Shown piece after piece: positions 47,814-63,859 of a stretch of DNA of 64,000 nt. The stretch spans positions 310,001 to 374,000 of the forward strand of contig NZ_JAMXMX010000005.1 in assembly GCF_024055725.1 (NCBI RefSeq), in the 5' to 3' direction. Each line of letters starts with the position of its first letter. The first letter of the stretch is position 1. Source of the DNA: Actinoallomurus spadix. GTDB lineage: Bacteria; Actinomycetota; Actinomycetes; Streptosporangiales; Streptosporangiaceae. Made by a program: the position numbers and the translations under genes. Below the pieces are notes generated by a model. It worked only from the letters and a program-made list of their open reading frames with translations, was not told the DNA's origin and ran no database searches.

Positions 47814-48680
47814 GTGAGCCGCGTCACCGTCGTGATCGCCACCAGGAACCGGCGATCGGAGCTGCTGCGCACCCTTGACCGGCTGGCGGCCCTGCCGGAC
47901 CGGCCGGTCGTCGTGGTGGTCGACAACGGCTCCGAGGACGGCACGGTGCGGGCGGTGACGGCCGCCCACCCGGGCGTACGGGTCGTGCCCCTGGGCCGCA
48001 ACCGGGGGGCCGCCGCCCGCAACGTCGGCGTCCACCTGGCCCGCACGCCGTACGTCGCGTTCAGCGACGACGACTCGTGGTGGGAGCCGGGGGCGCTGAC
48101 CCGGGCCGCCGAGCTGTTCGACGCCCATCCCCGGCTGGGCCTGATCGCGGCGCACACCCTCGTCGGCCCGGACCGCGAGCCCGACCCGATCAACGCGGCG
48201 ATGGCCGAGTCACCGCTGCCGCCCGACCCCGGACTGCCCGGACCGCCCGTCCTCGGCTTCCTGGCCTGCGCCTCGATCGTCCGGCGCGAGGCCTTCCTGG
48301 CCGTCGGCGGGTTCTCGTCCCTGCTGTTCTTCATCGGCGAGGAACGCCTGCTGTCCTACGACCTCGCCGCCGCCGGCTGGGGCCTGTGCCACGTTCCCGA
48401 GGTGGTCGCGGTGCACGAGCCGTCGGCGAACCGGCCGCCGTCGCACCGGCGCCGCCGCAGCGAGCTGCGCAACACCGTGCTCACGGCCTGGATGCGCCGC
48501 CCCGGCCTCGTCGCGGTCAGGGAGACCGCGCGGCTCGGGGCGCGGGCGCTGCGGGACTGCGACTCCCGCGCGGCCCTCGCGGCCGCCGCCGTACGCCTCC
48601 CCTCAGCACTGGCGGCGCGGCGGCCCGTCCCGGCGACCGTCGAGGGCGGCATCCGACGGCTGGCCGGGGACGCGCGGTGA
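47814..48680 (+). CDS. GT2 family glycosyltransferase
   Basis: A 288-residue GT-A enzyme starting at GTG ([23 protein letters not shown]). [23 protein letters not shown] and the DDD metal motif ([13 protein letters not shown]) are complete. Later blocks are [19 protein letters not shown] and [15 protein letters not shown]. It is a cytoplasmic inverting transferase; the sugar is unknown. A GGGAGG site precedes the GTG. The next gene is a close relative, overlapping by 4 bp (GTGA), so they arose by tandem duplication. Confidence 0.9.
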
Positions 48681-49813: not shown

Positions 49814-49955
49814 GGTCCGGCCGCCTTCGGGTGCAGGCCGTCGAGCAGGACGCGGATCAGGGCGCCGGGGAAGCTCGGGTCGTTGTCGGCGCCGGCGAGG
49901 GCGACGATGCCGTCGAGGACCTGTCCAAGGCCGTCCGCATCGCGCTCTGAGCACA
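49810..49955 (-). pseudogene. C-terminal stub resembling a TetR-type regulator
   Basis: In one minus-strand frame the sequence reads ERDADGLGQVLDGIVALAG and then ALIRVLLDGLHPKAAGP before a stop, a pattern like the last helices of TetR regulators. There is no N-terminal HTH, because upstream the DNA belongs to the phosphodiesterase-like stub in another frame. The assignment is tentative; the break lies between about 49955 and 49982. Confidence 0.35.
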
Positions 49956-49981
49956 CCGCCTCGCCACCGGTCCACCTCGGG

Positions 49982-50164
49982 GCCGTGCCCGCTCGGCGGC
50001 AGGCCGGTGAGAAGGCTCGCCTGTACGGAGCAGGTGACGGCGGGCAGCACCGGGGTCAGCGCGGCGTGGGAGCCGGCCTCGGCCAGGGCCCGCAGGTTCG
50101 GCGTGTGCGGCAGCAGTCGCGGTGTCAGGCCGGCGACCTCGATCACGAGCAGCGGCGTGGTCAT
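49982..50164 (-). pseudogene. Alkaline-phosphatase-superfamily gene, N-terminal stub (ebo-linked)
   Basis: About 61 residues from ATG match the start of alkaline phosphatase family phosphodiesterases: PLLVIEVAGLTPRLLPHTPNL and the TPVLPAVTCSVQASLLTGLPPSGHG nucleophile region. The reading frame then runs into unrelated Arg-rich sequence. The ATG overlaps the stop of eboE (ATGA), which is the order seen in ebo clusters, so it is a deleted member of that operon. Confidence 0.65.
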
Positions 50165-51357
50165 CCGGCCGGCACCGTGAGGCCGCGCGCGACGAGGGCG
50201 TCCCGTACCCAGGCCAGTTCCCCGGCGATCCCCACCGCGAGGCCCGCGTCGCCGTCCGGGCGCGCCGCGGCGGGAAGGACACCCCAGGTGTAGGTCTCCA
50301 CCTCAACGTGGTCGGTGAGCGTACGGTCACCGAACAGCGCGTCGAGGCAGGACAGCAGCTCGGTGCTCGTGGCGCGCAGCGGCGGGCGCGGCCGGGCGTG
50401 CAACGGCAGGTGGAAGTGCACCCGCCACGGCCCGCGGGCGGACGGCGGCCGGGAACCGGCAAGCGCGTCCGGGAGATCGTCCCAGCCGTCGCACCGGCGG
50501 GCCTCTCCGTCGCCGGTCCGGCCGTCGGCCGATTCGCGGGTCTGGTGGAGGAACCGGTCCTCGGCGAACGCGGCCAGGGCGGCGCGGGTGGCCGGATCGC
50601 CGGGACGGTCGGCGTGCAGGGCGGCGGACGCCTGGAGCTTGACGACCGGGAGGCCGGCGGCCGCGAGCCGGGCGGCGGCGGCCTGTGGGTCCTCGGCGGC
50701 GACGGCCAGATGGCAGGCGTCGAGGCACACGCCGAGCCACCGGGTGTCGACGCCGGTCAGGAGGGCGACCGCCTGGTCGGTCGTCTCCACCACGCAGCCC
50801 GGCTCGGGTTCGATGCCCACACGCACCGGGCGGCCCGAGACCGCGGCGATCTGGGAGAGGCCCTCGGTGAGCCGGTGCAGGTTCGCCAGCGCGGCCGTGT
50901 GCTGCCGCCGTGACCACGGCGTCCGCCAGGCGAAGGGCAGCGTCGAGACGCTGCCGCGGGCGGCGTCGTCGGGCATCAGCCGGGCGAGGACGGCCGCCAG
51001 GTCGAGTGTGTAGGTGAGCCGTTCCGGCCGTGACCAGTCGGGCCGGTAGACGGCGTGCTTGACGCGAGCGGTGTGGAAGCCCCGGTACGGGAAACCGTTG
51101 AGCGTCACCACCTCCAGACCGTGCCGGTCCAGGGCCGTGCGCAGCCGGTCGACGGCGCGCGGGTCCGCGGCGAGCGTCGCGGCGGCGCGGTGCGCCAGCC
51201 ACAGGCCGAGCCCGAGTCTGTCGACGCCGAGGTGGCGCCGCACCGGCCTGGCGAAGCGGCGCAGCTGGTTCAGGACCCCGTCCAGGTCCTCGGCCGGGTG
51301 GACGTTCGTGCAGTAGGCCAGATGCACCGTCCGGCCCCGCTGGTCCAGCAGCCGCAC
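50161..51357 (-). CDS. eboE: EboE-type metabolite traffic protein
   Basis: A 398-residue TIM-barrel-like protein from GTG (RLLDQRGRTVHLAYCTNVHPAEDLDGVLNQL). The start, the LGLGLWLAHRAA segment, VVTLNGFPYRGFH, VKHAVYRPDWSRPERLTYT, VRVGIEPEPGCVVETTDQAV and LGVCLDACHLAV follow the EboE family, and the length is complete. In Pseudomonas fluorescens and cyanobacteria the ebo genes deliver a membrane-derived precursor to the periplasm. Here it is flanked by a truncated phosphatase gene downstream and a deleted eboB upstream, so whether it still functions is doubtful. GGAGG lies 8 bases before the GTG. Confidence 0.82.
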   Translation of the reverse strand: MRLLDQRGRTVHLAYCTNVHPAEDLDGVLNQLRRFARPVRRHLGVDRLGLGLWLAHRAAATLAADPRAVDRLRTALDRHGLEVVTLNGFPYRGFHTARVKHAVYRPDWSRPERLTYTLDLAAVLARLMPDDAARGSVSTLPFAWRTPWSRRQHTAALANLHRLTEGLSQIAAVSGRPVRVGIEPEPGCVVETTDQAVALLTGVDTRWLGVCLDACHLAVAAEDPQAAAARLAAAGLPVVKLQASAALHADRPGDPATRAALAAFAEDRFLHQTRESADGRTGDGEARRCDGWDDLPDALAGSRPPSARGPWRVHFHLPLHARPRPPLRATSTELLSCLDALFGDRTLTDHVEVETYTWGVLPAAARPDGDAGLAVGIAGELAWVRDALVARGLTVPAG

Positions 51358-51360
51358 CGG

Positions 51361-51726
51361 TCAGTCCTCCGGCTCGCCGCGCACGACCGAGTTGCCGCCG
51401 TGCGTCTTCGTCTCCGGGTAGATGGAGAAGCCCATGGTGTCCAAGCCGACCTCGCCGACGGCCACGACGCCGTCCTTGGCGAGGTGGCGCGGCAGCAGCT
51501 CCAGCACGTCGGCGCAGCGCGGGTCGTTGGCCTCCTTCGGGTTGAGCCCGATCGCGTAATGGTGCCGGACGCGCGACCACGCCTCGTCCGTGGCGGTGCC
51601 GCCCGTCACACCGGCCGCCCCGTCGTCCGCCCCAGGGCCCGGCACGCCGCCCACCCCGCAGCCCGACGCTCCGGCCGGCACGTCGGCCGCCCCACAGCGC
51701 GGCGCGCCGCCCGTCACGTCGGCCAT
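51361..51726 (-). pseudogene. EboB/TatD-family hydrolase remnant with internal deletion
   Basis: An ATG-initiated 121-residue frame. The first ~50 residues are Gly/Ala-rich low-complexity sequence. Then comes RHHYAIGLNPKEANDPRC, with a PRHLAKDGVVAVGEVGLDTM block that matches the EboB/TatD core. It jumps directly into GFSIYPETKT, which in full-length proteins lies ~70 residues further on, and stops. The catalytic His and Asp motifs are missing. Its ATG overlaps the stop of the epimerase gene by 13 bp, so it stayed in the operon order. Confidence 0.7.
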
Positions 51727-52646
51727 CCCGCTGGCATGGTGTCGGCCTGGGCGAGGGCCGCGCGCAGGAACCGCAGCGACCGGGCGGCGACGGCCGGAGC
51801 GTCGTGAGAGTGCCGGGGCAGTTCGACCGCGACCAGCCCGGAGTAGCGGGCCGCCAGGAGTTCGCGCAGGACGGGCGAGAACTCGACCTCTCCCGTGCCG
51901 AACTCCAGGTGCTCGTGGACGCCCCGGCGCATGTCGTCGATCTGGACGTGCGCGAGCAGCGGCGCGGCCCGGCGGACGCAGGCGTCGGCCGGCTCGCTCT
52001 CGTTGCAGCGGCAGTGGCCGATGTCCAGGGTGAGCCGCAGCGCGGGCGGCTCACCGAGGTGACGCCACAGGTCGAAGGCGCCGTCGAGGGTGTTCACGAG
52101 CATGCCGGGCTCCGGCTCGAACGCGAGCGTCACCCCGCGGTGTTCGGCCGCCGTGACGACCCGCGCGCAGCGGGTGACCAGGCGTTCCCAGCCGGTCTCG
52201 GGCGACAGGCCGGGGGGAAGCGCGCCGGACCACAGGGACACCGCCTCGGCGCCCAGTTCGGCGGCGACGTCCACCGCCCGCCGCAACAGGTCGAGGCGCG
52301 GCTCGGGATGGTCGGACAGCAGCGTCGGCTGGTGTTTGCGCCGGGGGTCGAGCAGGTACCGCGCCCCGGTCTCGACGACCACGCCGAGGCCGAGGAGGTC
52401 GAGCCGCCGGGCGAGCGCCGTGGCGCGCCGCCGCAGTTCCGGGAGGAACGGGTCGAGGTGGTGGTGGTCGAGAGTGATCGCGACCCCGTCGTAGCCGAGG
52501 TCGGCGAGGACGGCGACCGCGTCGTCGAGCCGGTGCCCGGTGAATCCGTTCGTGCCGTACGCGAATCGCAGGGCCGGCGGCGCGTCGTGAACCGGGCCGG
52601 GCGCACCGACCGGCCACACCCCCGTACGCCCAGGCGCGTCGTCCAT
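51714..52646 (-). CDS. Sugar phosphate isomerase/epimerase family TIM-barrel protein (ebo-linked)
   Basis: A 310-residue protein starting MDDAPGRTGVWPVGAPG. LRFAYGTNGFTGHRLDDAVAVLADLGYDGVAITLDH, YLLDPRRKHQPTLLS, VTLAFEPEPGMLVNTLDGAFDL, LRLTLDIGHCRCNE, VQIDDMRRGVHEHL and FSPVLRELLAARYSGLVAVELPRHSH are the xylose-isomerase-like TIM barrel with its metal ligands. In actinobacterial ebo clusters a protein of this kind precedes eboA and eboB. eboA is absent here. It appears intact. The start is uncertain: an upstream GTG (52691) is possible. Confidence 0.78.
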   Translation of the reverse strand: MDDAPGRTGVWPVGAPGPVHDAPPALRFAYGTNGFTGHRLDDAVAVLADLGYDGVAITLDHHHLDPFLPELRRRATALARRLDLLGLGVVVETGARYLLDPRRKHQPTLLSDHPEPRLDLLRRAVDVAAELGAEAVSLWSGALPPGLSPETGWERLVTRCARVVTAAEHRGVTLAFEPEPGMLVNTLDGAFDLWRHLGEPPALRLTLDIGHCRCNESEPADACVRRAAPLLAHVQIDDMRRGVHEHLEFGTGEVEFSPVLRELLAARYSGLVAVELPRHSHDAPAVAARSLRFLRAALAQADTMPAGWPT

Positions 52647-52792
52647 AGAACCCCCCGTTCCGGCCCCGGGGCGTACCCGTGCCGTTCGCACCGGAAACGG
52701 CGCGCCGGGCCCGCCGGACGCCCGCCGTGCGCGCGCCCACGGCCACTCCTCACCGACGTGATGACCTGGTCAAATCCGGTTCCGCGCGGGTT

Positions 52793-52812
52793 CCCGTGCC
52801 CAGTGGCACGGG
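52793..52812 (-). terminator. Hairpin downstream of the GT9 operon
   Basis: CCCGTGCC-CAGT-GGCACGGG, a perfect 8-bp stem with a 4-base loop, ~115 bp after the minus-strand GT9 stop and ~145 bp before the epimerase start. No U-tract. Confidence 0.5.
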
Positions 52813-52926
52813 TACGCAACGCGCCGTGTCGGTACGCACCGCCCCGGCGGCGACGGGGCTCTGCAACGGCCCTCGTCGACGAACGGTCGCGGCGGGTCAC
52901 GGACCGGCACCGGACGGAACGGCCGG

Positions 52927-53865
52927 TCAGGCCGCCGGCTCGCGGAGGGACGTCAGGGCGGCGAGGACCTCCTCGACGGTGATCTGGAGCAGGCGCGGAT
53001 CGGTCTCGGTGCCGTGGGCGTTCCCCGGGCGGCCGCCGGTGCCGTGCCACAGGGCGACGTGCGGTCCGCCCTCCGGCGGGCCCCACAGCGCCGGGGACAC
53101 CGGGCCGAACAACGTCACGGACGGCACGCCGTACGCCGTGGCCAGGTGCGAGACGCCGGTGTCGTTGCTGACCACGACGGCGGCGTCGGCGACGAGGGCC
53201 GCCAGGCCCGTCAGGCCGGTCGTTCCGGCGAGCACCGAGGCGGCGGGCAGCCCGGCGGCCTCGGCCACGGCCGCCGCCAGGTCGCGTTCCCCGGCGGTCC
53301 CGGTGATCACCACGGGGCGGCCCTCGCCGGCCAGCGCGCGGGCGACGGCCGCGAAGCGATCCGGCGGCCAGCGGCGGGCGGGGTAGGCCGCGCCCGGGTG
53401 CACCACGGCCGCCCGGCGGACCGGCGGCTCCTCCGCCGGGACGCGCAGGCGCAGGTCGCCCGGGTCGGCCGGGATCCCCCACCGCCCGACGAGACGGCAC
53501 CACCGCGCGACCTCGTGCTCCTCCTCGTCCCACCACGGCCCGTCGACGTCCGGGGCGGCCGCGGAGGCGTACATCATGCGGACCGCCGCGCCGGTCGCGT
53601 CGATCAGCCGGTGGCTGGCGGGGCCGTTGCCGTGCAGGTCCACGGCGACGTCCGGCGGCGGCCAGTCCCACGGGATCGGGCGCAGCTCGCCGGCCGGCAG
53701 GAGCCGGTCGATCGCCCCGGTCAGCGCCGCGAGGGGCCGCAGCGCCTCCGGGGCCGCCAGGACCGTCTCGGCGCGCGGGTACGCCCGGCGCAGCGCGCGG
53801 TAGGCGGGCACGCCGGTGAGGAAGTCGCCCAGGCCGAGGGCGCGCAGCATCAGGACGGACGTCAC
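52927..53865 (-). CDS. GT9 family (heptosyltransferase-like) glycosyltransferase
   Basis: A 312-residue GT-B enzyme. It begins from GTG with TSVLMLRALGLGDFLTGVPAYRAL, an ADP-heptose:LPS heptosyltransferase start. The C-terminal half has AAVVHPGAAYPARRWP, VVITGTAGERDLA and SNDTGVSHLATAYGVPSVTLFGP. It should transfer heptose, or a related activated sugar, to a cytoplasmic acceptor. It is the last gene of the minus-strand operon, its start overlapping the stop of the GT4 gene (GTGA). A weak hairpin follows at 52793-52812. Confidence 0.9.
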   Translation of the reverse strand: MTSVLMLRALGLGDFLTGVPAYRALRRAYPRAETVLAAPEALRPLAALTGAIDRLLPAGELRPIPWDWPPPDVAVDLHGNGPASHRLIDATGAAVRMMYASAAAPDVDGPWWDEEEHEVARWCRLVGRWGIPADPGDLRLRVPAEEPPVRRAAVVHPGAAYPARRWPPDRFAAVARALAGEGRPVVITGTAGERDLAAAVAEAAGLPAASVLAGTTGLTGLAALVADAAVVVSNDTGVSHLATAYGVPSVTLFGPVSPALWGPPEGGPHVALWHGTGGRPGNAHGTETDPRLLQITVEEVLAALTSLREPAA

Positions 53866-54821
53866 CGGGTCACCTCGGCCAGGATCCGCTCCCAGTCGGC
53901 GAGGAAGCGCTTCAGGCCGTAGCGTTCCAGCGCGGCGGCGCGGGCGGCCTTGCCGAGCTGAGCGGCCTCCTCATGGTTGGCCAGCAGCCGCCGCAGGCCC
54001 TCGCGGAGCCGGTCGGGGCGGGTGGAGATGATGCCCGCCTCGCGGGGCACCGCCTCGACGACCTCGGTGGTGGCCAGCACCACGACCGGCATGCCGAGGT
54101 GCATGGCCTCCAGCAGCGACAGGCCGAGGGAGGTCCACCGGATCGGGTGCAGGTAGACGCGCCGCCGGGCGAGTTCCTCGTGCATGTACTCCTGGGGCAG
54201 GTCCTCGTACGCGCGGGCGCCGGGCAGGCCGAGCCGGCCGGGCAGCTCCTCGACCTTCATCCCGAAGACGTCCAGGCCGGCACCGTCGGCGAAGTACGGC
54301 AGCAGGTCGGTGCCGACGTACCGGCCGCGCCGCAGCGGTTCGTTGACGACGACGGCCGCCCGCTCGAGCTCCCCGGTCCACCGGGGGCCCGGGTCGACGA
54401 TGCCGTGCTCGACGACGGCGGTCGGCGTGCGCCCGTTGTCCCACATCAGCCGGTTGAAGTGGGTGACGTGGACGAGAAGGAGCTCCGGCCGGTCGGCCAT
54501 CGGGTGCCGGGTCAGCGGCACGTCGCCCCACGGCGCGTCGTGCTCGACGTACACCGCGGGCAGGTCCACGCCGGGCCGGCGGCCCAGCCACTCCTCGACC
54601 AGCCTCTCCTCGTGGGGCCGCTGGAGGACGACGACGTCGATCTCCTCGTCGCGGAGCCGCTCGGGCGGTACCTCGACGGCGTTCGCCGGCCACTCCCACG
54701 TACGGGCCCGGCCGAGACCGTCCGGTCCGCGGTCCGGCGTCACGGGCAGCACGTACGTGTGCGGCCCCTGGACGAAGGCGGTCGCCCACGACCCGTGGAC
54801 GTGCCAGATCAGCACCCTCAT
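53862..54821 (-). CDS. GT4-like glycosyltransferase
   Basis: A 319-residue GT-B protein starting MRVLIWHVHGSWATAFVQGPHTYVLPVTP. VEHDAPWGDVPLTRHPMADR, HVTHFNRLMWDNG and the C-terminal SLGLSLLEAMHLGMPVVVLATTEVVEAVP (with the conserved E-x-M glycosyltransferase motif) identify it. The first ~30 residues resemble those of transferases that act on a surface glycan, but the donor is not clear. The gene overlaps both neighbours by 4 bp. Confidence 0.85.
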   Translation of the reverse strand: MRVLIWHVHGSWATAFVQGPHTYVLPVTPDRGPDGLGRARTWEWPANAVEVPPERLRDEEIDVVVLQRPHEERLVEEWLGRRPGVDLPAVYVEHDAPWGDVPLTRHPMADRPELLLVHVTHFNRLMWDNGRTPTAVVEHGIVDPGPRWTGELERAAVVVNEPLRRGRYVGTDLLPYFADGAGLDVFGMKVEELPGRLGLPGARAYEDLPQEYMHEELARRRVYLHPIRWTSLGLSLLEAMHLGMPVVVLATTEVVEAVPREAGIISTRPDRLREGLRRLLANHEEAAQLGKAARAAALERYGLKRFLADWERILAEVTR

Positions 54822-55888
54822 CGGTTCACCTCGATGGCCAGCTTTTCGACGGCGTCGGCCACTTCCTGCGCCGTGACCTCCGTCAGGCAGGGATGTCCGT
54901 CAATGGGGCACTCGCGTGCCCGGGTGTCGCGGCAGGCGGCGTTCTGGTCACCGAGCAGGACGTACGGCACGCCGTAGGGCGCCCACCGCGCCGCCGGGAC
55001 GACGGGCGCGAACAGCGACACGACCGGCGTCCGTACGGCGGCGGCCAGGTGCGCCGGGCCGGTGTTGCCGACGACGACCACGGCCGCCCCGGCGAGGACG
55101 GCGGCGAGTTCGGCCATGCCCGTACGGCCGCCCAGGTCGACGCCGGTGTCCCCCGCGACACGGTCCGTCAGGTCGCGTTCGCCGGCGGTGCCGGTGACGA
55201 GGACCCGCCACCCGCGTCCGGTCAGCTCCTCCACCGCCTCGGCGCAGCGCCGGCCGGGCCAGGCCCGCGCCGGGACCGACGCGCCCGGGTGGAGGACGAC
55301 GTACCGGTCCTCGCCGGTCAGGTGCCGCACGTCGGGCAGCGGCGTGCGCACGGCCAGGCGGCCGTCGTCGCCCGGCGGGAGCGCGAACCCGGCCGCGCGG
55401 GCCAGTGACAGGCCGCGCTCGGCCTCCGGGACGTCGTCGTCCAGCCGGTGCCGTACGTCGAGCAGCGCGCCGGGGTAGTCGACGCTGATCGCGGCCGTCC
55501 GCGTGACACCGGCGAGCCGCAGCAGCAGCGCGGTCGGCAGCGGCGACTGGTGGAAGGACGTCAGGATCAGCGCGTCGTCGAAGCGCCCCGCGGCCAGCCG
55601 GTCCACGAGCGCGTCGATCTCGCCGCGGTGGACCGGCGGCGGCTGGAGGTCGACCCACGGGGCGCGCCACACGACGACCTCGTCGACGCCGGGCAGGAGC
55701 CGGGCCGCGGCCTCGCCGCGCGGCCCCACGAGCATGGTGACGTGCGCGGAGTGCGCGGCGACGGCGCGGACGGCCGGGCCGGCGAGCAGCACGTCACCGG
55801 CGTTGTCCAGGCGCACGACGAGCGAACGCCGCGCCTCCCGGCCGCCGCCCACGGCGAGCGAGCGCCGCGCCGCCCCGTCGTCACTCAT
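54818..55888 (-). CDS. GT9 family (heptosyltransferase-like) glycosyltransferase
   Basis: A 356-residue GT-B protein starting MSDDGAARRSLAVGGG, then RRSLVVRLDNAGDVLLAGPAVRAVAA. The C-terminal part has VVLHPGASVPARAWPG, LVTGTAGERDLTD and VVVGNTGPAHLAAAVRTPVVSLFAP. It is the second GT9 of the operon; two such enzymes suggest two successive heptose additions, as in the inner core of LPS, but here in a Gram-positive. Its ATG overlaps the stop of the GT2-GmhB gene by 8 bp, and its own stop overlaps the GT4 start. Confidence 0.9.
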   Translation of the reverse strand: MSDDGAARRSLAVGGGREARRSLVVRLDNAGDVLLAGPAVRAVAAHSAHVTMLVGPRGEAAARLLPGVDEVVVWRAPWVDLQPPPVHRGEIDALVDRLAAGRFDDALILTSFHQSPLPTALLLRLAGVTRTAAISVDYPGALLDVRHRLDDDVPEAERGLSLARAAGFALPPGDDGRLAVRTPLPDVRHLTGEDRYVVLHPGASVPARAWPGRRCAEAVEELTGRGWRVLVTGTAGERDLTDRVAGDTGVDLGGRTGMAELAAVLAGAAVVVVGNTGPAHLAAAVRTPVVSLFAPVVPAARWAPYGVPYVLLGDQNAACRDTRARECPIDGHPCLTEVTAQEVADAVEKLAIEVNR

Positions 55889-57455
55889 GCCACACCGCCG
55901 CGCCGGTACCGCCGGCAAGGCCGTAGCGGACGGCCTCCTCCAGGCCGGCCGACCGGCGTACGCCGTCGGTCTCCTCCGGCCGGGTCTGCGGCGTCGGGAT
56001 GAGGACACTGCGCGCCCCGGCGGCCCGCGCCGCCGCGACGTCGGCGCCGATGTCGCCGACGACCAGGCACTCCTCGGGCGCGACGCCGAGGTCGGCCGCC
56101 GCCCGCAGCACCATGCCCGGGGCCGGTTTGCGGCAGTCGCAGCCGTCGTGCTCGCCGTGCGGGCACTGCTGCCACGTGTCGAACGGGCCGAGCAGTTCGG
56201 TCACCCGCGCGTTGACCTTGGCGACCTCGGCCTCGGTGGCCAGGCCGCGGGCGATCGCGGACTGGTTCGTGATGACGCCGACGCGCAGCCCGGAGCGCCG
56301 GGCGAGGTCGAGGGCCTCCTTCGCGCCGGGCACCGGCTCGACCTTGCCGGGATCCCCGTTGTACGGGACGTCGTGGATGAGGGTGCCGTCCCGGTCGAAC
56401 AGCACGGCCTTCACCGGCGGCGGCCAGGGGGCGGCGGACCGCGCCGCGACCAGGCCGCGCAGCCAGTGCCAGGTGGCGGCGGGCGGGATCGCCAGGCTCG
56501 TCGCCGTCATCACCGCGACCTCGCGCGGCGTGCGGGGCCCCGGCTTGACGCGCGCGGCGGCGAACTCCGCGACGCCCGCGAGGGCGCCGGCCGCCGCGGC
56601 CAGCGCGAGGCGCCGGCGTCCGGCGGCGGCCAGGGCCGGCGCGGCGAGCCCGGCGACGGTGATCGCCAGGTGCCGGGGCCGCCGCCCGCGGATCTCCCCG
56701 GCGCGTTCGTACCAGTCCGGGCCGTGCAGGGCGCGCATCAGCGCGTCGTCGGCGTTGCCGGCCTGGGTGCGGACGCTGATCCAGGGTGATGCGGGCCGTA
56801 CGGGATGGGTGGTGGTGCGCTCGCCGCGCTCCATCAGCCAGCCGGCCCGCAGGACCCGGAGCGCGAGGTCGGCGTCCTCCCGGAACGCGCGGGGGAAGCG
56901 CTCGTCGAAGCCGCCGCACTCCACGAGAGCCTCGCGGCGGTAGGCCAGATCCGCGGTGATCCACCGGGCCTCGGCCAGCCCCGCCGTCCCCCGCTCCCAG
57001 TCCGTCGGCCGCCGGTCCTCGGGCAGCGGGACCCGGATCCGGCCCTGCACGCCGCCGACGCGCGCGGGCCGCTCCGCGAGGTCGGCGGCGAGGCGGTCCC
57101 GCCAGTCCGGGCCCACGCGTACGTCGTCGTCGAGGAACACCACCCACGGGGCGGACGTGCGCCGCCAGCCGAGGTTGCGCGCCGCCGCCGGTCCCCGCCC
57201 GCCGGCGGCGACCACCCGCGTACGGGACAGGAGCGGCTCGGGAACCCGGATCGGCGTGCCGCCCTCGGCGGAGCGCCGGTCGTCGACCAGGACGATCTCG
57301 GCGGGGAGCGGCCCGGACGCCGTGGCCAGCGCCTCGAGGCAGGCGTCCAGGCAGGGGCGGACGAGCGTGGGGATCACGACGGCGTACGTGACGCCGGTCT
57401 CCTCGTCCGTGCTCGCGGCGCGGGCCCGCGCCGCGTTCTCCAGTCCCGCGCTCAC
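55881..57455 (-). CDS. Fusion of GT2 glycosyltransferase and GmhB-type heptose bisphosphatase
   Basis: A 524-residue bifunctional protein. Residues ~20-350 are a GT2 enzyme (TYAVVIPTLVRPCLDACLEAL, GRGPAAARNLGWR, FLDDDVRVGPDWR, RREALVECGGFDERFPRAFREDADLALRVL). A hydrophobic Ala-rich region follows (LAITVAGLAAPALAAAGRRR). The last ~170 residues are a HAD-IIIA phosphatase: VLFDRDGTLIHD (nucleophile Asp), VITNQSAIARG and the zinc loop CPHGEHDGCDCRKPAPG, which is diagnostic of D,D-heptose 1,7-bisphosphate phosphatase GmhB. Start GTG (SAGLENAARARAAS) overlaps the carbamoyltransferase stop (GTGA). The fusion ties heptose activation to a transfer step. Confidence 0.9.
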   Translation of the reverse strand: MSAGLENAARARAASTDEETGVTYAVVIPTLVRPCLDACLEALATASGPLPAEIVLVDDRRSAEGGTPIRVPEPLLSRTRVVAAGGRGPAAARNLGWRRTSAPWVVFLDDDVRVGPDWRDRLAADLAERPARVGGVQGRIRVPLPEDRRPTDWERGTAGLAEARWITADLAYRREALVECGGFDERFPRAFREDADLALRVLRAGWLMERGERTTTHPVRPASPWISVRTQAGNADDALMRALHGPDWYERAGEIRGRRPRHLAITVAGLAAPALAAAGRRRLALAAAAGALAGVAEFAAARVKPGPRTPREVAVMTATSLAIPPAATWHWLRGLVAARSAAPWPPPVKAVLFDRDGTLIHDVPYNGDPGKVEPVPGAKEALDLARRSGLRVGVITNQSAIARGLATEAEVAKVNARVTELLGPFDTWQQCPHGEHDGCDCRKPAPGMVLRAAADLGVAPEECLVVGDIGADVAAARAAGARSVLIPTPQTRPEETDGVRRSAGLEEAVRYGLAGGTGAAVWHE

Positions 57456-59083
57456 GGTCGCCTCACCACGAACGGGCCGATGGCGAGCAGGTCGATCGGG
57501 GTCGCGCCGAAGCATTCCAGGACGTCCTTGATGTCGTCGACGATCGGCCGCCCTGCGGTGTTGAGGCTGGTGTTGACCAGCACCGGCAGGCCCGTGCGCC
57601 GCTCGAAGGCGGTCAGCAGGCCGGCGACGAGCGGCTCCCGGCCGGAGTCGACGGTCTGGACGCGCGCGGTGCCGTCGACGTGGACGACGGCCGGGATGCG
57701 GTCCTGCCACTGCGGCGCGACGTCGTGCACGAACAGCATGTACGGGCTGGGGATCGGGCCCCGCGTGAAGATCTCTGGGGCGCGCTCCAGCAGCACCATC
57801 GGGGCGACCGGCCGGAACTGCTCGCGGCCCTTGACGTCGTTGAGGCGTTCGAGGTTGGCCTTGCGGCCGGGGTGAGCGAGCAGCGAACGATGCCCGAGAG
57901 CGCGCGGGCCGTACTCGGCGCGGCCCTGGAACCAGGCGACGACGCCATCGCCGGCGAGGACCTCCGCGACCGTGTCGGCCAGGTCGGCGGGCCGCTCGTA
58001 CGGCAGTCGCGCGGTGCGCAGCGCCCGTTCGATCTCCTCGTCGGTGAAGCCGCGGCCGAGGTCCGCGCCGGGCATGGGATCCAGGGGCTCGCCCTCGGTG
58101 GCGGCCACGTGGAGGGCGGCTCCGAGGGCGGTGCCCGCGTCGCCGGCGGCGGGCTGCACCCAGACCTCCTCGAACGGGCCCTCGCGGTGCAGCACGGTGT
58201 TGGCGACGCAGTTCAGCGCGGTGCCGCCGGCCATGGTGAGGATCCGGTCGCCGGTGCGCCCGTGCAACCAGTGGGCGAGGTCGAGCAGGACCTCCTCGAG
58301 TCGGCGCTGCACGCTGGCGGCCAGGTCGGCGTGCGCGCTCGTCCAGTCCTCGTCGGAGCGGCGGCGCGGCGCGAGCTCTGCCCAGTCGATCCGCTCGGTG
58401 ACGAACCCGCCGTCGCCGGTGGCCCGGACGGCGGCACGCAGCTGGTCGAGGAAGCGCGGCTTGCCGTACGACGCGAGCGCCATGACCTTGTACTCGTCGG
58501 AGGAGCGCAGGAACCCGAGGTGGGCGGTGAGGTCCTCGTACATCAGGCCGAGCGAGTGCGGGAGCCGCTGACCGGCCAGCACGTCGAGCCGGCCGCCGTC
58601 GTACCGGCCCGCGAGGTGGGAGGCCTGCTCGCCGCGCCCGTCGCACACGAGGACGCTGCGCGGTTCGGCGGTGGAGACCGCGAGCCCGCCGGAGGCGGCG
58701 TGCGCGACGTGGTGCGGCACGAACCGGACCTTGCCGGGATCCAGGCCCGGCAGCGCGTCGGCGAGGAAGCCCGGCGCCTCCTTCGCGTACATCGTGCGGA
58801 GGTGGTCCCAGGGGTCGTCGACGCCCATCTCCTCGGGTGGGAGGACGAGCGACGGGTCGTAGGAGTAGCCGACGAGGTCGATCCGGTCGGGCGTCAGCCC
58901 TGCCTGCCGCAGGCACCAGCGGGCCGCTTCCACCGGCTGCTCCCAGGCGGAGAACGGCACCGGCCGTTTGCCGTGCTTGCGGCGGCTGAACCGCTCCTCC
59001 TCCGCGGCGGCCACCACGTGCCCGTCGACGACGAGCGCCGCCGCCGGGTCGTGGAAGACGGCATTGACGCCGAGCACTCGCAC
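57452..59083 (-). CDS. Carbamoyltransferase (NodU/CmcH family)
   Basis: A 543-residue O-carbamoyltransferase. The N-terminus from GTG (RVLGVNAVFHDPAAALVVDGHVVAAAEEERFSRRKHGKRP) is the family signature, and HHVAHAASG supplies metal ligands. VMALASYGKPRF and the C-terminal YGPRALGHRSLLAHPGR / DVKGREQFRPVAPMVL block follow. It would make a carbamoyl-adenylate from carbamoyl phosphate and ATP and transfer it to a sugar hydroxyl. The GTG at 59083 follows GAGGAGGGA by 4-6 bases, so I prefer it to the ATG at 59104. It is the first gene of the minus-strand operon and points to a carbamoylated glycan or metabolite. Confidence 0.92.
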   Translation of the reverse strand: MRVLGVNAVFHDPAAALVVDGHVVAAAEEERFSRRKHGKRPVPFSAWEQPVEAARWCLRQAGLTPDRIDLVGYSYDPSLVLPPEEMGVDDPWDHLRTMYAKEAPGFLADALPGLDPGKVRFVPHHVAHAASGGLAVSTAEPRSVLVCDGRGEQASHLAGRYDGGRLDVLAGQRLPHSLGLMYEDLTAHLGFLRSSDEYKVMALASYGKPRFLDQLRAAVRATGDGGFVTERIDWAELAPRRRSDEDWTSAHADLAASVQRRLEEVLLDLAHWLHGRTGDRILTMAGGTALNCVANTVLHREGPFEEVWVQPAAGDAGTALGAALHVAATEGEPLDPMPGADLGRGFTDEEIERALRTARLPYERPADLADTVAEVLAGDGVVAWFQGRAEYGPRALGHRSLLAHPGRKANLERLNDVKGREQFRPVAPMVLLERAPEIFTRGPIPSPYMLFVHDVAPQWQDRIPAVVHVDGTARVQTVDSGREPLVAGLLTAFERRTGLPVLVNTSLNTAGRPIVDDIKDVLECFGATPIDLLAIGPFVVRRP

Positions 59084-59434
59084 AGAGTCCCTCCTCGTCC
59101 GCATTCGTTCCCGCAGGCCAGTGCCCTGGGGCTCGGGCGGTAAACCGCGCCTGTCAGTTCCATTGCCGGGAGCATCCCGGGTAGGCGTCCGGACGGTAAT
59201 GATTTGTTAAGGCTTCCGAGAGCGGGTGACTGGCCCTCAGCGGCGTCCTGGACGCGGCTGAGGGCCAGCTCACGGTGCGTTTCCGCAGTTACACAAGGCG
59301 TCTCGGGGCTTGACACGAACTGGACGAAGTCCCAGTTCCGCACGTCGCGCCCCTCTTTGCTGCGTTCAGTCAGTGTTTGAGGCAGCGCTCCTCGGCAACG
59401 GCGTCCGTATGGCCCGCTGATAAAGGAGTGACTC
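59084..59434. promoter_or_regulatory. Divergent promoter region of the heptose locus
   Basis: This 351-bp non-coding region separates the two operons. It holds a 12-bp stem hairpin CTGGCCCTCAGC (59230-59241) / complement (59257-59268) with an inner GCGTCC/GGACGC dyad. TTGACA lies at 59310-59315 and an inverted repeat GAACTGG-N8-CCAGTTC at 59317-59338, immediately after that -35, as expected for an operator. An AT-rich patch GTAATGATTTGTTAA (about 59201-59215) may carry the minus-strand promoter. No ORF. Confidence 0.55.
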
Positions 59435-60661
59435 TTGAACATCGACATGGTCTCGGAGCACGCCAGTCCGCTCGCGACGCTGGGCGGCGCCGATGCGGGA
59501 GGCCAGAACGTCCATGTGGGAGCGCTCGCCGTCGCGCTGGCGGAGCGCGGCCACGAGGTCGTCGTCCACACGCGCCGCGACGACGCCGACCTGCCGGACT
59601 CGGTGCCCTTCGCGCCCGGGGTGACGGTCGAACACGTACCGGCGGGCCCGGCACGACCGATCCCCAAGGACGACCTGCTGCCGTACATGACCGACTTCGC
59701 GGCGCACTTGGGGCGGCGATGGCTGAGCAGACCCCCCGACATCGTGCACGCCCACTTCTGGATGAGCGGGCTCGCCGCCCTCGGCGGCGCCCGTGACCAC
59801 GGCGTGCCGGTGGTGCAGACGTTCCACGCCCTCGGCCGGGTCAAGCGCCGCTACCAGCGGGACGCCGACACGAGCCCGGCCGGCCGGGTGCGCCTGGAGG
59901 GCCAGGTCGGGCGCGACGCCACCGCGGTGGTGGCGACCTGCACCGATGAGGTCCGGGAGCTGGGCGCGTACGGCGTGCCGCCGGACCGTGTCTTTGTCGT
60001 GCCCTGCGGGGTCGACACCGAGCGTTTCCGCCCGGACGGTCCCGTGTCCGAGCGTGACGGCGCCCGGCCGCGCGTCCTGACGGTCGGCCGGCTGGTCCCC
60101 CGCAAGGGCGTCGACACCCTCCTCGAGGCGATGCGCCGCGTCCCGGACGCGGACCTGCTGATCGCGGGCGGGCCGGAACGCTCCAGGCTGGGCGACGACC
60201 CGGAGGCGCGCCGGCTGATGAGCCTGGCGGAGGAGTACGGCGTGACCGACCGCGTGGTCTTCCTGGGCCGGGTCGCGCACGACGAGATCCCGGCGCTGGT
60301 CCGCTCGGCGGACGTCGTCGTCTCCGTCCCCTGGTACGAGCCGTTCGGCATCGTCCCGATCGAGGCGATGGCCTGCGGCGTGCCCGTCGTCGCCTCGGCG
60401 GTGGGCGGGCACCTCGACACGGTCCTCGACGGCGTCACCGGACTGCGCGTGCCGCCCCGGCGGCCGGACGAGCTGGCCGCGAGCCTGCGCCGGCTGCTCG
60501 GCGACGCCGGGCTACGGCGTTCCCTGAGCCGCGCGGCGGCCGAGCACGCCCACGGCCGGTACTCGTGGGACCGGGTCGCGGCCGAGACGGAGTCCGTCTA
60601 CGAGCAGGTCATCGAGACGGCGCGGGAACGGCTGGCCTTCGCGGAAGGAGCACGGTCATGA
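59435..60661 (+). CDS. GT4 family glycosyltransferase
   Basis: A 408-residue GT-B enzyme starting at TTG (NIDMVSEHASPLATLGGADAGGQNVHVGALAVALAERGHEVVVHTRRDD). AAGGAGTG lies 6-7 bases ahead of the start. IVHAHFWMSGLAALGG, QTFHALGRVKRRYQ, VPCGVDTERF, LTVGRLVPRKGVDTLLEAM and the EPFGIVPIEAMACG motif (E-x7-E) are all present. The N-terminus resembles sucrose synthase/sucrose-phosphate synthase-like transferases, but the donor is unknown. It is the first gene of the plus-strand operon with gmhA, hldE and the SDR. Confidence 0.9.
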   Translation: MNIDMVSEHASPLATLGGADAGGQNVHVGALAVALAERGHEVVVHTRRDDADLPDSVPFAPGVTVEHVPAGPARPIPKDDLLPYMTDFAAHLGRRWLSRPPDIVHAHFWMSGLAALGGARDHGVPVVQTFHALGRVKRRYQRDADTSPAGRVRLEGQVGRDATAVVATCTDEVRELGAYGVPPDRVFVVPCGVDTERFRPDGPVSERDGARPRVLTVGRLVPRKGVDTLLEAMRRVPDADLLIAGGPERSRLGDDPEARRLMSLAEEYGVTDRVVFLGRVAHDEIPALVRSADVVVSVPWYEPFGIVPIEAMACGVPVVASAVGGHLDTVLDGVTGLRVPPRRPDELAASLRRLLGDAGLRRSLSRAAAEHAHGRYSWDRVAAETESVYEQVIETARERLAFAEGARS

Positions 60662-61461
60662 TCGATTCACATCTCACCGCGCTCGAAGAGGCGCTGCGGC
60701 GATTCCAGGCCCAGACCCCCCGCCTCGAGAGCTGGGGGCGGCGGCTGGCGACCGTCCTGGAGGACGGCGGGCGCCTGCTCGCCTGCGGAAACGGCGGCAG
60801 CGCCGAACAGGCCCAGCACCTGACCGCCGAGCTCGTCGGCCGGTACCAGACCGAGCGGCGGCCGTTCGCGGCGATCCCGCTGCACACCGACATCTCGGCG
60901 CTGACCGCGATCGGCAACGACTACGGCCACGAGGAGATGTTCGCCCGGCAGGTGCGGGCGCACGGCCGGCCCGGCGACGTGCTGATCTGCCTGTCCACGA
61001 GCGGCAGCAGCCGCAACGTCATCGCCGCCGCCAGGGCCGCCGCCGAGGTCGGTGTGCGGGCCTGGGCGCTGACCGGTCCCGGCCCGAACCCCCTGGCGGG
61101 GGTCTGCGCCGAGGCGGTCACGGTCGAGGCGCCGTCGACCGCCACCGTCCAGGAGGTGCACCTGGCCGCGATCCACATGCTGTGCGCCGCGATCGACGCG
61201 GTCGTGTGCGGCACCGCCGACGGCACGGTGAGGTGCGCGACCGGTGACGGCTCGACGGCGCACCGCGCCGGTGACGGCGCGAGGGCGCGCGGGACCGGTG
61301 ACGGGGCGATGCGGCGGGACACCGCCGACGGGGCGATGGCGCACGGGACCGGTGACGGCTCGACGGCGCACGGCAGCACCGACGGAACGAGCGTGCGCGG
61401 CGCCGCCGACGGCGCGCGCCGCGTGCTGGGCCTGGGCCGCGAAGCCGAGGAGGCCGTATGA
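60658..61461 (+). CDS. gmhA: Sedoheptulose 7-phosphate isomerase with repetitive C-terminal tail
   Basis: A 267-residue SIS-domain enzyme. Residues 1-~185 carry the GmhA motifs: CGNGGSAEQAQHLTAELVGRY (substrate loop and zinc-ligand His/Glu), HTDISALTAIGNDYGHEEMF, LSTSGSSRNVI and VQEVHLAAIHMLC. It converts sedoheptulose 7-phosphate to D-glycero-D-manno-heptose 7-phosphate. The last ~80 residues are unlike any GmhA: eight degenerate 8-10-residue units built on TGDG/ADG followed by a basic or polar residue pattern (see repeat). The ATG overlaps the stop of the GT4 gene (ATGA) and AAGGAG precedes it. Confidence 0.9.
   Translation: MIDSHLTALEEALRRFQAQTPRLESWGRRLATVLEDGGRLLACGNGGSAEQAQHLTAELVGRYQTERRPFAAIPLHTDISALTAIGNDYGHEEMFARQVRAHGRPGDVLICLSTSGSSRNVIAAARAAAEVGVRAWALTGPGPNPLAGVCAEAVTVEAPSTATVQEVHLAAIHMLCAAIDAVVCGTADGTVRCATGDGSTAHRAGDGARARGTGDGAMRRDTADGAMAHGTGDGSTAHGSTDGTSVRGAADGARRVLGLGREAEEAV
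61210..61427 (+). repeat. In-frame minisatellite coding the GmhA tail
   Basis: About eight 24-30-bp units, e.g. ACCGGTGACGGCTCGACGGC followed by GCAC, with every insertion a multiple of three. Two copies of TGDGSTAH are identical at protein level. It lies inside gmhA after the last structural helix. Confidence 0.75.
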
Positions 61462-62894
61462 GGGGCGGCCCGCTGGTCGTCATCGGCGACGTCCTGCTCG
61501 ACGTCGACCTCGAGGGATCCGCCGAACGGCTGACCCCGGACGCCCCCGTCCCCGTCGTCGACTGCCAGCGTGAGCGACATCGCGCGGGCGGCGCCGGGCT
61601 GGCCGCGACGCTGGCCGCCCGCCTGACCGGCCGGGACGTCGTCATGATCACCGCGCTCGGCGACGACCGGTCCGGGCGGCGCGTCCGCGACCTCCTCGCC
61701 TCGCGCGTCGAACTCGTCCCGCTGCCGATGAGGGGCACGACGCCCAGCAAGATCCGCGTCCGTGCCGCCGGGCAGTCGCTCGTCCGCCTCGACACCGGCG
61801 ACGGGCGCGCGGCCGACGGCCCGGTCGGCCCGCGGGTCGCGACGGCGCTGGAGCGGGCCGGCGCCGTCCTCGTCTCCGACTACGGGCGCGGGGTGACCGC
61901 CCACCCGGAGATCCGGCGGCTGCTGGCAGGCATGTCCGGTCGCACGCCGATCGTGTGGGACCCGCATCCGCGCGGGGCCGCGCCGCTGCCCCGCACCCGC
62001 CTCGTGACGCCGAACCGCGCCGAGGCCCGCGCCTTCGCCGGCGACGAGCCGGCCGCGGGCGACGAGGGGTTCGCCCAGGCCGCCCGGGACGCCGCCACGC
62101 TCGTGGCACGCTGGGAGGTCGGCGGTGTCGCCGTGACCCTCGGTGACCGCGGCGCGCTGCTGTCGGTCGGCGACGGCGTGCCGTTCGTGGCGCCCGCCCC
62201 GGAGACCGGGATCACCGACCGGGCCGACACCTGCGGAGCGGGCGACTCGTTCGCGGCCGCCGCCGCCCACGTGCTGCACGGAGGCGGCCTCGTCACCGAG
62301 GCGGTCACGGAGGCGGTGCGGTACGCGAGCGCGTTCGTCGCCGCCGGTGGCGCCGGAGCCGTCTCCGGCACGGAGACCCGACCGGCGGCCCCGGAGCCGC
62401 CCGCGGCGCCGGCCGGCGGTGAGCCCTGGGAGGTCGTCCGGCGGGTCCGCGAGCGCGGCGGCCGGGTCGTGGCCACCGGTGGCTGCTTCGACCTGCTGCA
62501 CGCCGGTCACGTCAGCATGCTGCGGGAGGCCCGCCGTCTCGGCGACTGCCTGGTGGTCTGTATCAACTCGGACGCGTCCGTACGCGCGCTGAAGGGTCCC
62601 GACCGGCCGCTGGTGCCAGTCAGCGACCGTGCCCGGGTGCTGTCGGCGCTGGAGTGCGTCGACGCGGTGGCGGTGTTCGACGAGCTGACGCCCGTCGAGC
62701 TGCTGGAGCGCCTGCGCCCCGACGTGTGGGTCAAGGGCGCCGACTACTCGGGCGGTGACCTGGTGGAGGCGGGCGTCGTCCGCCGCCACGGCGGAGAGGT
62801 CGTCCTCCTGCCCTATCTCGATGGTCGTTCGACGAGCCGTCTGGTCGCGCGGGTCCGCGAGACGGCGAGCACTCACGGAGGTGAGACCCGATGA
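61458..62894 (+). CDS. hldE: Bifunctional heptose 7-phosphate kinase / heptose 1-phosphate adenylyltransferase
   Basis: A 478-residue fusion, the same length as the Escherichia coli enzyme. Residues 1-~310 are a PfkB-type kinase: [51 protein letters not shown], and [17 protein letters not shown] with the catalytic Asp. Residues ~330-478 are a nucleotidyltransferase: [25 protein letters not shown] (HxGH), [27 protein letters not shown]. It phosphorylates heptose 7-phosphate at C1 and later makes ADP-heptose from heptose 1-phosphate; GmhB acts between the two steps. The ATG overlaps the gmhA stop (ATGA). Confidence 0.93.
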
Positions 62895-63859
62895 CGGAAC
62901 GAGCGGTGGTCACCGGCGGGGCGGGGTTCCTCGGTTCGCACCTCTGCGAGCGCCTGCTCGCGCAGGGCACGTCGGTCATCTGCCTGGACAACTTCCTGAC
63001 CGGCTCCCCGCAGAACGTCGCCCACCTGATGGGCCGTCCCGGGTTCCGGCTGATCGAGTGCGACGTCACCGGCTTCGTGCACGTCCCCGGCGACGTGGAC
63101 CTCGTGCTGCACTTCGCGTCGGCGGCGTCGCCCATCGACTACCTGAAGCTTCCGCTGGAGACGCTGAAGGTCGGCGGGCTCGGCACGCTGCACGCGCTCG
63201 GCCTGGCGCGGGAGAAGGGCGCGCGGTTCATCCTGGCCTCCACCAGCGAGGTGTACGGGGACCCGCTGCGGCACCCGCAGCGCGAGGACTATTGGGGCAA
63301 CGTCAACCCGGTCGGCCCGCGCAGCGTGTACGACGAGGCCAAGCGCTACGGCGAGGCGCTGACGACGGCGTACCGCAACAGCCGGGGCGTGAACACCGGC
63401 ATCGTCCGGATCTTCAACACGTACGGCCCGCGGATGCGCCCGCACGACGGCCGGGCGATCCCGACGTTCATGCGCCAGGCACTGCTCGGCGAGCCGCTCA
63501 CGGTCGCCGGGGACGGCGGCCAGACCCGGTCGATCTGCTACGTCGACGACACGGTGAACGGCATCCTCGCGCTGGCCCGCAGCGACCTTCCCGGGCCGGT
63601 GAACATCGGCAACCCGGAGGAGATGACGATCCTGGAGCTCGCGGAGAGCATCCGCGACCTGGCCGGTTCGGACTCGCCGATCGAGTTCGTCGACCGGCCC
63701 GTCGACGACCCCGGGGTGCGCCGCCCCGACACGACCCTGGCCCGGGAACGGCTCGGCTGGCGGCCGGCCGTGCCGCGCGACGCCGGCCTGCGGCGGACCC
63801 TCGACTGGTTCGCGGCGGAGCTCGGCGTCGGGGCCGCCGCGCGCGCCGCCGGAACGTGA
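62891..63859 (+). CDS. Extended SDR, UDP-glucuronate decarboxylase-like epimerase/dehydratase
   Basis: A 322-residue extended SDR. The N-terminal [15 protein letters not shown] binds NAD, and the catalytic motifs are [14 protein letters not shown] and YDEAKRYGE (YxxxK). [37 protein letters not shown] and [14 protein letters not shown] resemble UXS/UDP-glucuronic acid decarboxylases more than HldD epimerases. It is the last gene of the operon, overlapping hldE by 4 bp, and may modify the nucleotide sugar co-used by the glycosyltransferases. The donor is unknown; a role as C6 epimerase of ADP-heptose is possible but not shown. A terminator follows. Confidence 0.88.

Follow-up and report, generated by a model that had tools for sequence, protein, structure and literature searches.

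A putative NDP-heptose, xylose and carbamoyltransferase gene cluster of Actinoallomurus spadix related to the Streptomyces cwg operon

Results

The window, as we call the whole stretch of 64,000 nucleotides of Actinoallomurus spadix DNA that was analysed, contains at 52927-63859 nine open reading frames without internal stops, arranged as two divergent operons (Table 1). As a first-pass annotation made from the letters alone had described, every internal junction overlaps (7/7), by 4, 8, 4 and 4 nt in the minus block and by 4, 4 and 4 nt in the plus block. Each of the nine gene assignments is backed by Pfam and NCBIfam, which agree with that annotation on GmhA, HldE, two GT9 proteins, two GT4 proteins and a carbamoyltransferase. 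Two of its other calls were corrected: the GmhB of the fusion is joined to a GT2 glycosyltransferase, and the short-chain dehydrogenase/reductase (SDR) is a predicted UDP-glucuronate decarboxylase, not a heptose epimerase. Scans of the window for tRNAs and Rfam families returned no matches. The cluster is adjoined by an ebo block that has decayed.

Table 1. Features of the cluster and its surroundings (window coordinates)
Feature	Position	Strand	Basis or remark
GT2 glycosyltransferase, probably displaced tenth member	47814..48680	+	Pfam GT2
GT9a, heptosyltransferase-like	52927..53865	-	Pfam PF01075
GT4-like glycosyltransferase	53862..54821	-	Pfam Glycos_transf_1, C-terminal half only
GT9b, heptosyltransferase-like, cwgE/SCO6183 position	54818..55888	-	Pfam PF01075
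GT2-GmhB fusion (putative D,D-heptose 1,7-bisphosphate 7-phosphatase half)	55881..57455	-	Pfam/NCBIfam
Putative O-carbamoyltransferase (CT), NodU/CmcH/TobZ family, first minus-operon gene	57452..59104	-	Pfam Carbam_trans_N + _C
Divergent promoter region between both operons	59105..59434	.	39-bp imperfect palindrome at 59230-59268
GT4 glycosyltransferase, MshA/sucrose-phosphate synthase-related, TTG start	59435..60661	+	NCBIfam, PDB matches
GmhA, putative sedoheptulose-7-phosphate isomerase	60658..61461	+	NCBIfam gmhA, residues
HldE, putative heptose-7-phosphate kinase / heptose-1-phosphate nucleotidyltransferase	61458..62894	+	NCBIfam rfaE_dom_II
Predicted UDP-glucuronate decarboxylase (UDP-xylose synthase, UXS), cwgA position	62891..63859	+	UXS1 structures

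Among the heptose enzymes, the nucleotidyltransferase domain of HldE scores above its NCBIfam cut-off (191.5 versus 181.5 bits, rfaE_dom_II), and the HldE kinase domain, full-length HldE, GmhA (161 bits versus 209 for gmhA) and GmhB are recognisable at scores below the NCBIfam equivalog cut-offs. We compared these proteins with their E. coli counterparts at positions that we take to be catalytic or metal-site residues, nearly all of which are conserved in GmhA, HldE and the GT2-GmhB fusion. The E. coli GmhA residues E65, D94, H180 and Ser55/121/124 recur in 77/77 sequences (the protein of the window also bears a low-complexity tail), the GAGD and HxGH motifs of HldE are invariant across 17 aligned proteins, and the GmhB half retains the nucleophile and the Cys/His metal-site residues, with E. 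coli K137 replaced. For the fusion, GmhB structures top both the sequence matches and the matches to the predicted fold. Homology and active-site residues support a complete predicted pathway from sedoheptulose 7-phosphate to an NDP-D,D-heptose. The earlier claim that all steps to ADP-D-glycero-D-manno-heptose are present is supported as to the pathway. As to the nucleotide, ADP may not be the only one, since HldE carries Arg at the motif position 5 that a commentary ties to CTP/UTP use (PMC11461863). A genome scan for an HldD epimerase gave no hit above cut-off.

The SDR aligned with the UXS1 structures 2b69/4gll over residues 3-313 (E 8e-104) and has the TSE and YxxxK motifs in common with UXS1, which identifies it as a predicted UDP-xylose synthase and adds xylose to the predicted product. 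An HldD identity was rejected, given 57.5 bits with the HldD model (cut-off 274.6) and the far better match to UXS1. The carbamoyltransferase is full length with both of its Pfam domains, and its nearest solved relatives are 7xb6, the decarbamoylnovobiocin carbamoyltransferase 9s2t, GdmN and TobZ.

A survey of gene neighbourhoods, which the first-pass annotation had suggested, found the gene set in other genera; the set is thus not a product of chance, and the cluster is not specific to the window's organism. Orthologs of the carbamoyltransferase occur in about a fifth of the sampled genomes of the class (80/394). HldE accompanies the carbamoyltransferase in 73 of these 80 genomes, within 20 kb in 65, and 19 of 92 genomes with HldE are without the carbamoyltransferase, in counts that leave aside HldE matches below 147 bits and an 81st genome, G050, whose carbamoyltransferase match has 45% identity. 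All ten families are found together in 40 of the 63 loci not cut by contig ends; counts over 80 loci include those that are cut. The set is not fixed, as seven Geodermatophilaceae loci are without the carbamoyltransferase and two loci (L040 and L097) have only three of the ten families each. The block is also intact in a sister genome (G001), where its DNA is ~92% identical. Three recurrent neighbour families were scanned by Pfam, namely a UDP-glucose dehydrogenase, a pyruvyl transferase-like protein and a classical SDR. Homologs of the first, which beside GT9a would supply the UXS substrate, are present in 33/80 loci, 30 of them on the same strand and just after GT9a. EboE is found in 41/80 carbamoyltransferase genomes and in 94 of all 394 (odds ratio 5.2, Fisher p 2e-9, with shared ancestry ignored); the window's own genome is the only one in which EboE and the carbamoyltransferase share a contig at a distance of up to 50 kb. 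EboE also lies inside five of the 80 named loci (L044, L046, L047, L076 and L092). A functional link between the cluster and the ebo genes is at most weakly indicated.

Both GT9 proteins exceed the PF01075 cut-off, and their best score against the NCBIfam WaaC/WaaF models is 73.6 bits (cut-off 134.6). In a tree with only four E. coli references, too few to place them among all heptosyltransferases, the window-type GT9s form a separate clade on long branches. The best solved match of GT9a is WaaF (1psw, E 1.4e-16). An AlphaFold model of GT9b has WaaF (Z 30.9), a Veillonella GT9 and WaaC (Z 28.4) as its nearest folds, with TibC following after plant NDH subunits (Z 24.5); the match to the latter means that the fold is no proof of the donor. 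Of 11 WaaC positions checked, GT9a conserves 6 and GT9b 5, compared with 6 in WaaF, 4 in WaaQ and 5 in WaaU. When hits spanning more than 200 residues were tabulated, D13, E222, D261 and H266 of WaaC were conserved in 71/71 GT9a sequences (70 loci and the window), Asn replaced Asp261 (WaaC numbering) in 72/72 GT9b sequences, and Arg stood for Lys192 in both proteins; two hits that one residue scan assigned to GT9a (in L036 and L037) fall on GT9b and are outside the GT9a counts. The first-pass annotation had made its glycan interpretation depend in part on the GT9s not grouping away from heptosyltransferases: they do miss the cut-offs of WaaC/WaaF and branch as a clade of their own, yet GT9b has the predicted WaaF/WaaC fold, and both conserve about as many of the WaaC positions checked as WaaF, WaaQ and WaaU. 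We infer from this resemblance to WaaC/WaaF that the GT9s may transfer heptose.

The plus-strand GT4 scores below cut-off with both the NCBIfam MshA model (255 versus 462.5 bits) and the sucrose-phosphate synthase domain (108 versus 576 bits), and its PDB matches are 6kih, 3c4q and 3c48. The minus-strand GT4-like gene has an ortholog in 67/80 loci. GT2 and GmhB share one reading frame in 52 of the 65 loci with both parts and are separate in 13. The outlying GT2 has homologs directly before the GT4 gene in three Actinoallomurus loci (L035, L036 and G005) and, as in the window, beyond the minus block in a fourth (L034). The nine cluster genes include no flippase, polymerase or ligase.

The first-pass annotation had pointed to a related, uncharacterised cluster of Streptomyces coelicolor. 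The relative is real: by gene content, the cluster is orthologous to the already known, sigma-E-controlled cwg operon of Streptomyces (SCO6179-6190), which is described as a sigma-E target induced by vancomycin (PMC6767563) and is thus partly characterised. Streptomyces loci run UXS-CT-GT2-GmhB-GT9b-GT4x-GT4m-GmhA-HldE-GT9a, in many cases with a GT2 behind; this order agrees with the labels given for SCO6180-6183 and SCO6185-6188 in PMC5839063, S. coelicolor itself being compared through these labels alone, and PMC5882110 calls sco6183 (cwgE) a putative heptosyl transferase.

In S. coelicoflavus (L101), the sequence ahead of UXS contains an exact copy of the initial 16 nt of the sigma-E promoter published for cwg (PMC6767563). 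With a strict sigma-E pattern, the divergent region 59105-59434 gave no match, against 35 over 128000 window positions. The sequences upstream of UXS from 11 Streptomyces loci, just 94 bases long in one case, likewise gave none, and the 32 upstream regions taken from 16 further loci gave two (L043 and L047). Because the -10 element of L101 differs by one base, the strict pattern misses this promoter and is too strict for proof of absence. When the pattern was relaxed, the window's divergent region, G001 and L036 still gave nothing, and G005 gave a single hit, ahead of its GT4 gene. Sigma-70 and terminator scans of 59000-59500 returned nothing.

Discussion

Heptose is best known as a sugar of lipopolysaccharide (LPS). 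The genome had no match to LpxC (matched in 4/14 control genomes) or to the Kdo-transferase N-domain family (3/14), which rules out LPS as the product, in line with the first-pass annotation. Building on the observed gene content, orthology and catalytic residues and on the predicted folds of GT9b and of the fusion, we propose that the locus is probably the Actinoallomurus version of the cwg operon and makes a carbamoylated envelope glycan or glycolipid with D,D-heptose and xylose. GmhA, HldE and the GmhB half would convert sedoheptulose 7-phosphate to NDP-D-glycero-beta-D-manno-heptose (ADP-linked, possibly CDP- or UDP-linked, with no 6-epimerase), and UXS would convert UDP-glucuronate to UDP-xylose. 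From these donors, GT2, the two GT4s and the two GT9s would assemble an oligosaccharide that the carbamoyltransferase would O-carbamoylate, perhaps on heptose. The analogy to the Streptomyces operon under sigma-E control suggests an envelope product that is made under wall stress. Donor use, sugar order, the site of carbamoylation, envelope location and regulation in the window's organism are what we infer here.

That the product is instead a small glycoside containing heptose or xylose, whether secreted or intracellular, and thus a natural product akin to the heptose antibiotic septacidin, seems unlikely to us, even though septacidin of Streptomyces fimbriatus is named as a case of NDP-heptose use (PMC11461863), one GT4 resembles the small-molecule glycosyltransferase MshA and the nine genes hold none for polymer export or ligation; the orthologous operon is an envelope-stress target of sigma-E, and the Pfam-scanned neighbours belong to the three families named above. 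An envelope product would also be compatible with a real heptose pathway in which the GT9s transfer another sugar, such as xylose, and GT2 or a GT4 adds the heptose. The sub-cut-off scores and separate clade of the GT9s, the D261N exchange of GT9b and the UDP-xylose synthase within the same operon speak for this arrangement, which we likewise consider improbable in view of the WaaF, Veillonella GT9, WaaC and, behind the plant NDH subunits, TibC folds closest to GT9b, and of the four WaaC residues that GT9a conserves throughout, albeit with Arg for K192. Partial decay or silence of the locus in this strain, as the decayed ebo block and the GmhA tail might suggest, is very improbable: each of the nine reading frames is open, the catalytic residues compared are conserved almost throughout, and the sister genome has kept the block.

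For the carbamoylated envelope glycan that we favour, the gene assignments predict D,D-heptose, xylose and carbamoyl as building blocks of the cwg product and hence the exact sugars to seek. A literature search, with subscription journals mostly outside its coverage, found no title on heptose in actinobacterial walls. If the proposal is true, heptose would be a regular envelope component of many Gram-positive soil bacteria, with a bearing on antibiotic stress responses and on the innate sensing of NDP-heptoses.

With the LPS inner core of Gram-negative bacteria (waaC, waaF, hldE, gmhA, gmhB) the window shares the NDP-heptose pathway and the GT9 fold; it differs in a genome without LpxC, the Kdo-transferase family or HldD above cut-off, in GT9s that are not WaaC/WaaF equivalogs and in the presence of UXS. 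The Pseudomonas LPS core likewise involves a carbamoyltransferase (WapO, likened here by description, not sequence), and Pseudomonas cores are described as bearing a carbamoyl group on heptose (PMC8005017). We suggest, tentatively and with some doubt, that the product of the cwg operon might be to Gram-positives what the LPS inner core is to Gram-negatives, an O-carbamoylated D,D-heptose/xylose envelope oligosaccharide whose synthesis responds to wall stress. Septacidin-type pathways of Streptomyces are another instance of NDP-heptose use by a Gram-positive (PMC11461863); compared by description, the window differs from them in its five glycosyltransferase domains, its carbamoyltransferase and the wide conservation of the set. 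Relative to cwg of Streptomyces, the window has two divergent operons rather than one, no detected sigma-E-like promoter, an extra GT2 displaced beyond the ebo remnant, and a GT2-GmhB fusion like that of most loci examined outside Streptomyces; the GmhA, HldE, GmhB, two GT9s, two GT4s, GT2, carbamoyltransferase and UXS of the Streptomyces loci are all present.

Cluster architecture and heptose-pathway enzymes

The nine genes lie exactly where the first-pass annotation had placed them, and the overlap that it described at every internal junction was confirmed (7/7, by 4 or 8 nt). A divergent region of 330 bp separates the two operons, and the 39-bp palindrome at its centre is a possible operator. 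The source genome comprises 8.02 Mb in 71 contigs (completeness 98.3%).

Features of the heptose-glycan cluster and its flank (window coordinates)
Feature	Position	Remark
GT2 homolog	47814-48680	beyond the minus-strand block
Decayed ebo gene block	49614-52870	
EboE	50161-51357	still open
TatD gene	51361-51726	shrunk to a short ORF
TIM-barrel gene	51714-52691	still open
Nine-gene cluster	52927-63859	
Minus-strand operon		gene order: carbamoyltransferase, GT2-GmhB fusion, GT9b, GT4-like (GT4x), GT9a
Plus-strand operon		gene order: GT4 (GT4m), GmhA, HldE, SDR
Imperfect palindrome, 39 bp	59230-59268	mid divergent promoter region; two differences in the copy of the sister genome (G001)
Low-complexity repeat tail of GmhA	about 61250-61395	DNA alignment to G001 interrupted here

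The nucleotidyltransferase domain of HldE scored above the cut-off of its NCBIfam model (TIGR02199), GmhA and GmhB matched theirs below the equivalog cut-off, and the carbamoyltransferase gene contains both carbamoyltransferase Pfam domains. With E. coli K-12 as reference, GmhA residues S55, E65, D94, S121, S124 and H180 are retained in 77/77 proteins (76 loci plus the window); in the 70 GmhB domains compared, C92, C107 and C109 are invariant, D11, D13 and H94 are retained in all except one or two, and K137 is substituted. The roles of these residues in the E. coli enzymes are presumed. The window GmhA is 267 aa long, including its repeat tail; those of three relatives (L036, L091, L116) measure 195-215 aa. 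D,D-heptose bisphosphate phosphatases were the top matches of the GmhB half of the fusion in sequence and fold searches, and fold matches of the N-terminal half include GT2 folds such as chondroitin polymerase.

The HldE GAGD and HxGH motifs are invariant across 17 aligned proteins. In its C-terminal (F/L)xxGxSTT-type motif, the window HldE carries Arg at position 5; a tally with a loose motif pattern among the best 80 of 574 relatives gave Arg in 38, Tyr in 31 and His in 10, with one unmatched. A commentary (PMC11461863) that discusses Tang et al. 2024 ties Arg at this position to CTP/UTP use.

The SDR is a UDP-glucuronate decarboxylase

The SDR gene of the first-pass annotation is present and can be named more precisely: residues 3-313 align to UDP-glucuronate decarboxylase (UXS1) structures with E 8e-104. 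Given this match and an HldD model score of 57.5 bits against a cut-off of 274.6, an HldD identity was ruled out. Since none of the 18 HldD-model matches in the window's genome exceeds the cut-off, the end product of the heptose pathway should be D,D-heptose. UDP-glucose dehydrogenase homologs, two of them confirmed by Pfam, occur at 33 of the best 80 (of 574) loci, and 30 of the 33 have the gene directly after GT9a on the same strand; the window's genome encodes five members of this family, none within the cluster.

The GT9 proteins group apart from WaaC and WaaF

Pfam detected PF01075 in both GT9a and GT9b, and the solved structures closest in sequence were WaaF and a Veillonella GT9 (3tov), followed by WaaC. 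The AlphaFold model of GT9b (pLDDT 88) matched WaaF with Z 30.9 (305 residues, 3.2 A), 3tov with Z 30.8 and WaaC with Z 28.4; the heptosyltransferase TibC (Z ~20) and remaining GT-B enzymes (Z <=15.2) ranked lower, and plant NDH subunits reached Z values of up to 24.5, which calls for caution with the fold evidence. In a 147-sequence alignment (71 GT9a and 72 GT9b counted), WaaC D13 and H266 are conserved in 143/143 and K192 is replaced by Arg throughout. The E222 position is Glu in 71/71 GT9a and in 63/72 GT9b (Asp in 9/72), and D261 is Asp in 71/71 GT9a and Asn in 72/72 GT9b. At 11 WaaC positions, the window GT9a retains 6 and GT9b 5, compared to 6, 4 and 5 for E. coli WaaF, WaaQ and WaaU. 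In a tree that included just four E. coli references, GT9a and GT9b split off jointly from these (support 1.0), with GT9a monophyletic (1.0) and GT9b monophyletic with poor support (0.11). These results identify both as GT9 proteins that are not members of WaaC/WaaF.

Conservation and local variation

Relatives were collected by HldE profile scan, and the best 80 of 574 were compared. Counting each hit at a single place, the families number HldE 80, GmhA 79, GT9a 72, GT9b 72, GT4m 71, UXS (the decarboxylase) 71, GT2 69, GmhB 69, GT4x 67 and carbamoyltransferase 66. The complete ten-family set occurs at 40 of 63 untruncated loci; the carbamoyltransferase is the only family absent from seven Geodermatophilaceae loci, and L040 and L097 have just three families apiece. 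GT2 and GmhB share a single reading frame at 52 of 65 loci with both parts, the 13 with separate frames being 12 Streptomyces and one Blastococcus. Near the operon, a classical short-chain dehydrogenase recurs at 49/80 loci, mostly between HldE and GT9a (L057:11392-12081 and homologs), and a polysaccharide pyruvyl transferase-like gene at 33/80 (L071:3323-4225 and homologs); neither belongs to the window's nine.

Across 394 class genomes, TIGR02199 is above cut-off in 80, and a carbamoyltransferase ortholog is likewise found in 80 (one distant match excluded). Seventy-three of these 80 carry an HldE domain of at least 147 bits, 65 having both genes <=20 kb apart on one contig; 19 of 92 HldE genomes have no carbamoyltransferase (Fisher p 9e-53 for co-occurrence, shared ancestry ignored). 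Seven genomes of this sample (G078, G096, G112, G237, G270, G373, G389) encode two HldE genes ~10-11 kb apart on opposite strands without a carbamoyltransferase ortholog, apparently a different cluster.

Within Actinoallomurus, the blocks are divergent in the window and G001 and convergent in G005. In L035, L036 and G005 the GT4 gene is immediately preceded by a homolog of the GT2 found at 47814-48680 in the window; L034 resembles the window in GT2 placement, and neither carbamoyltransferase nor GT2-GmhB was seen at that locus. Between the displaced GT2 and the cluster sits the ebo remnant, which lacks several stretches of the larger G001 version; the latter still includes genes for UbiA, TatD, a TIM-barrel protein and a phosphodiesterase.

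Correspondence to the Streptomyces cwg operon

No sigma-E-like site was found in the window's divergent region with a strict pattern that also failed on the Streptomyces loci tested; a relaxed pattern gave a single match, in G005. Among the best 80 of 574, Streptomyces loci are ordered UXS-carbamoyltransferase-GT2-GmhB-GT9b-GT4x-GT4m-GmhA-HldE-GT9a, often with GT2 next. Excerpts of PMC5839063 label SCO6180, 6181, 6183, 6185 and 6188 of the S. coelicolor "cell wall glycan" (cwg) operon as transferases, 6182 as dehydratase, 6186 as phosphoheptose isomerase and 6187 as bifunctional synthase/transferase; part of PMC5882110 gives SCO6183 as a putative heptosyl transferase. The two orders agree at each position provided that 6182 is, as we infer, a HAD phosphatase, the SCO side being taken from the published labels. 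Upstream of UXS, the S. coelicoflavus locus, 1 of the best 80 (of 574), has an exact copy of the initial 16 nt of the cwg promoter printed in PMC6767563. The same source describes the orthologous Streptomyces operon as a vancomycin-induced sigma-E target with only partial sigE dependence. Because of this sigma-E control, the wide conservation and the parallel of carbamoylated heptose in Pseudomonas (excerpts of PMC8005017), our analysis favours an envelope glycan as the cluster product.
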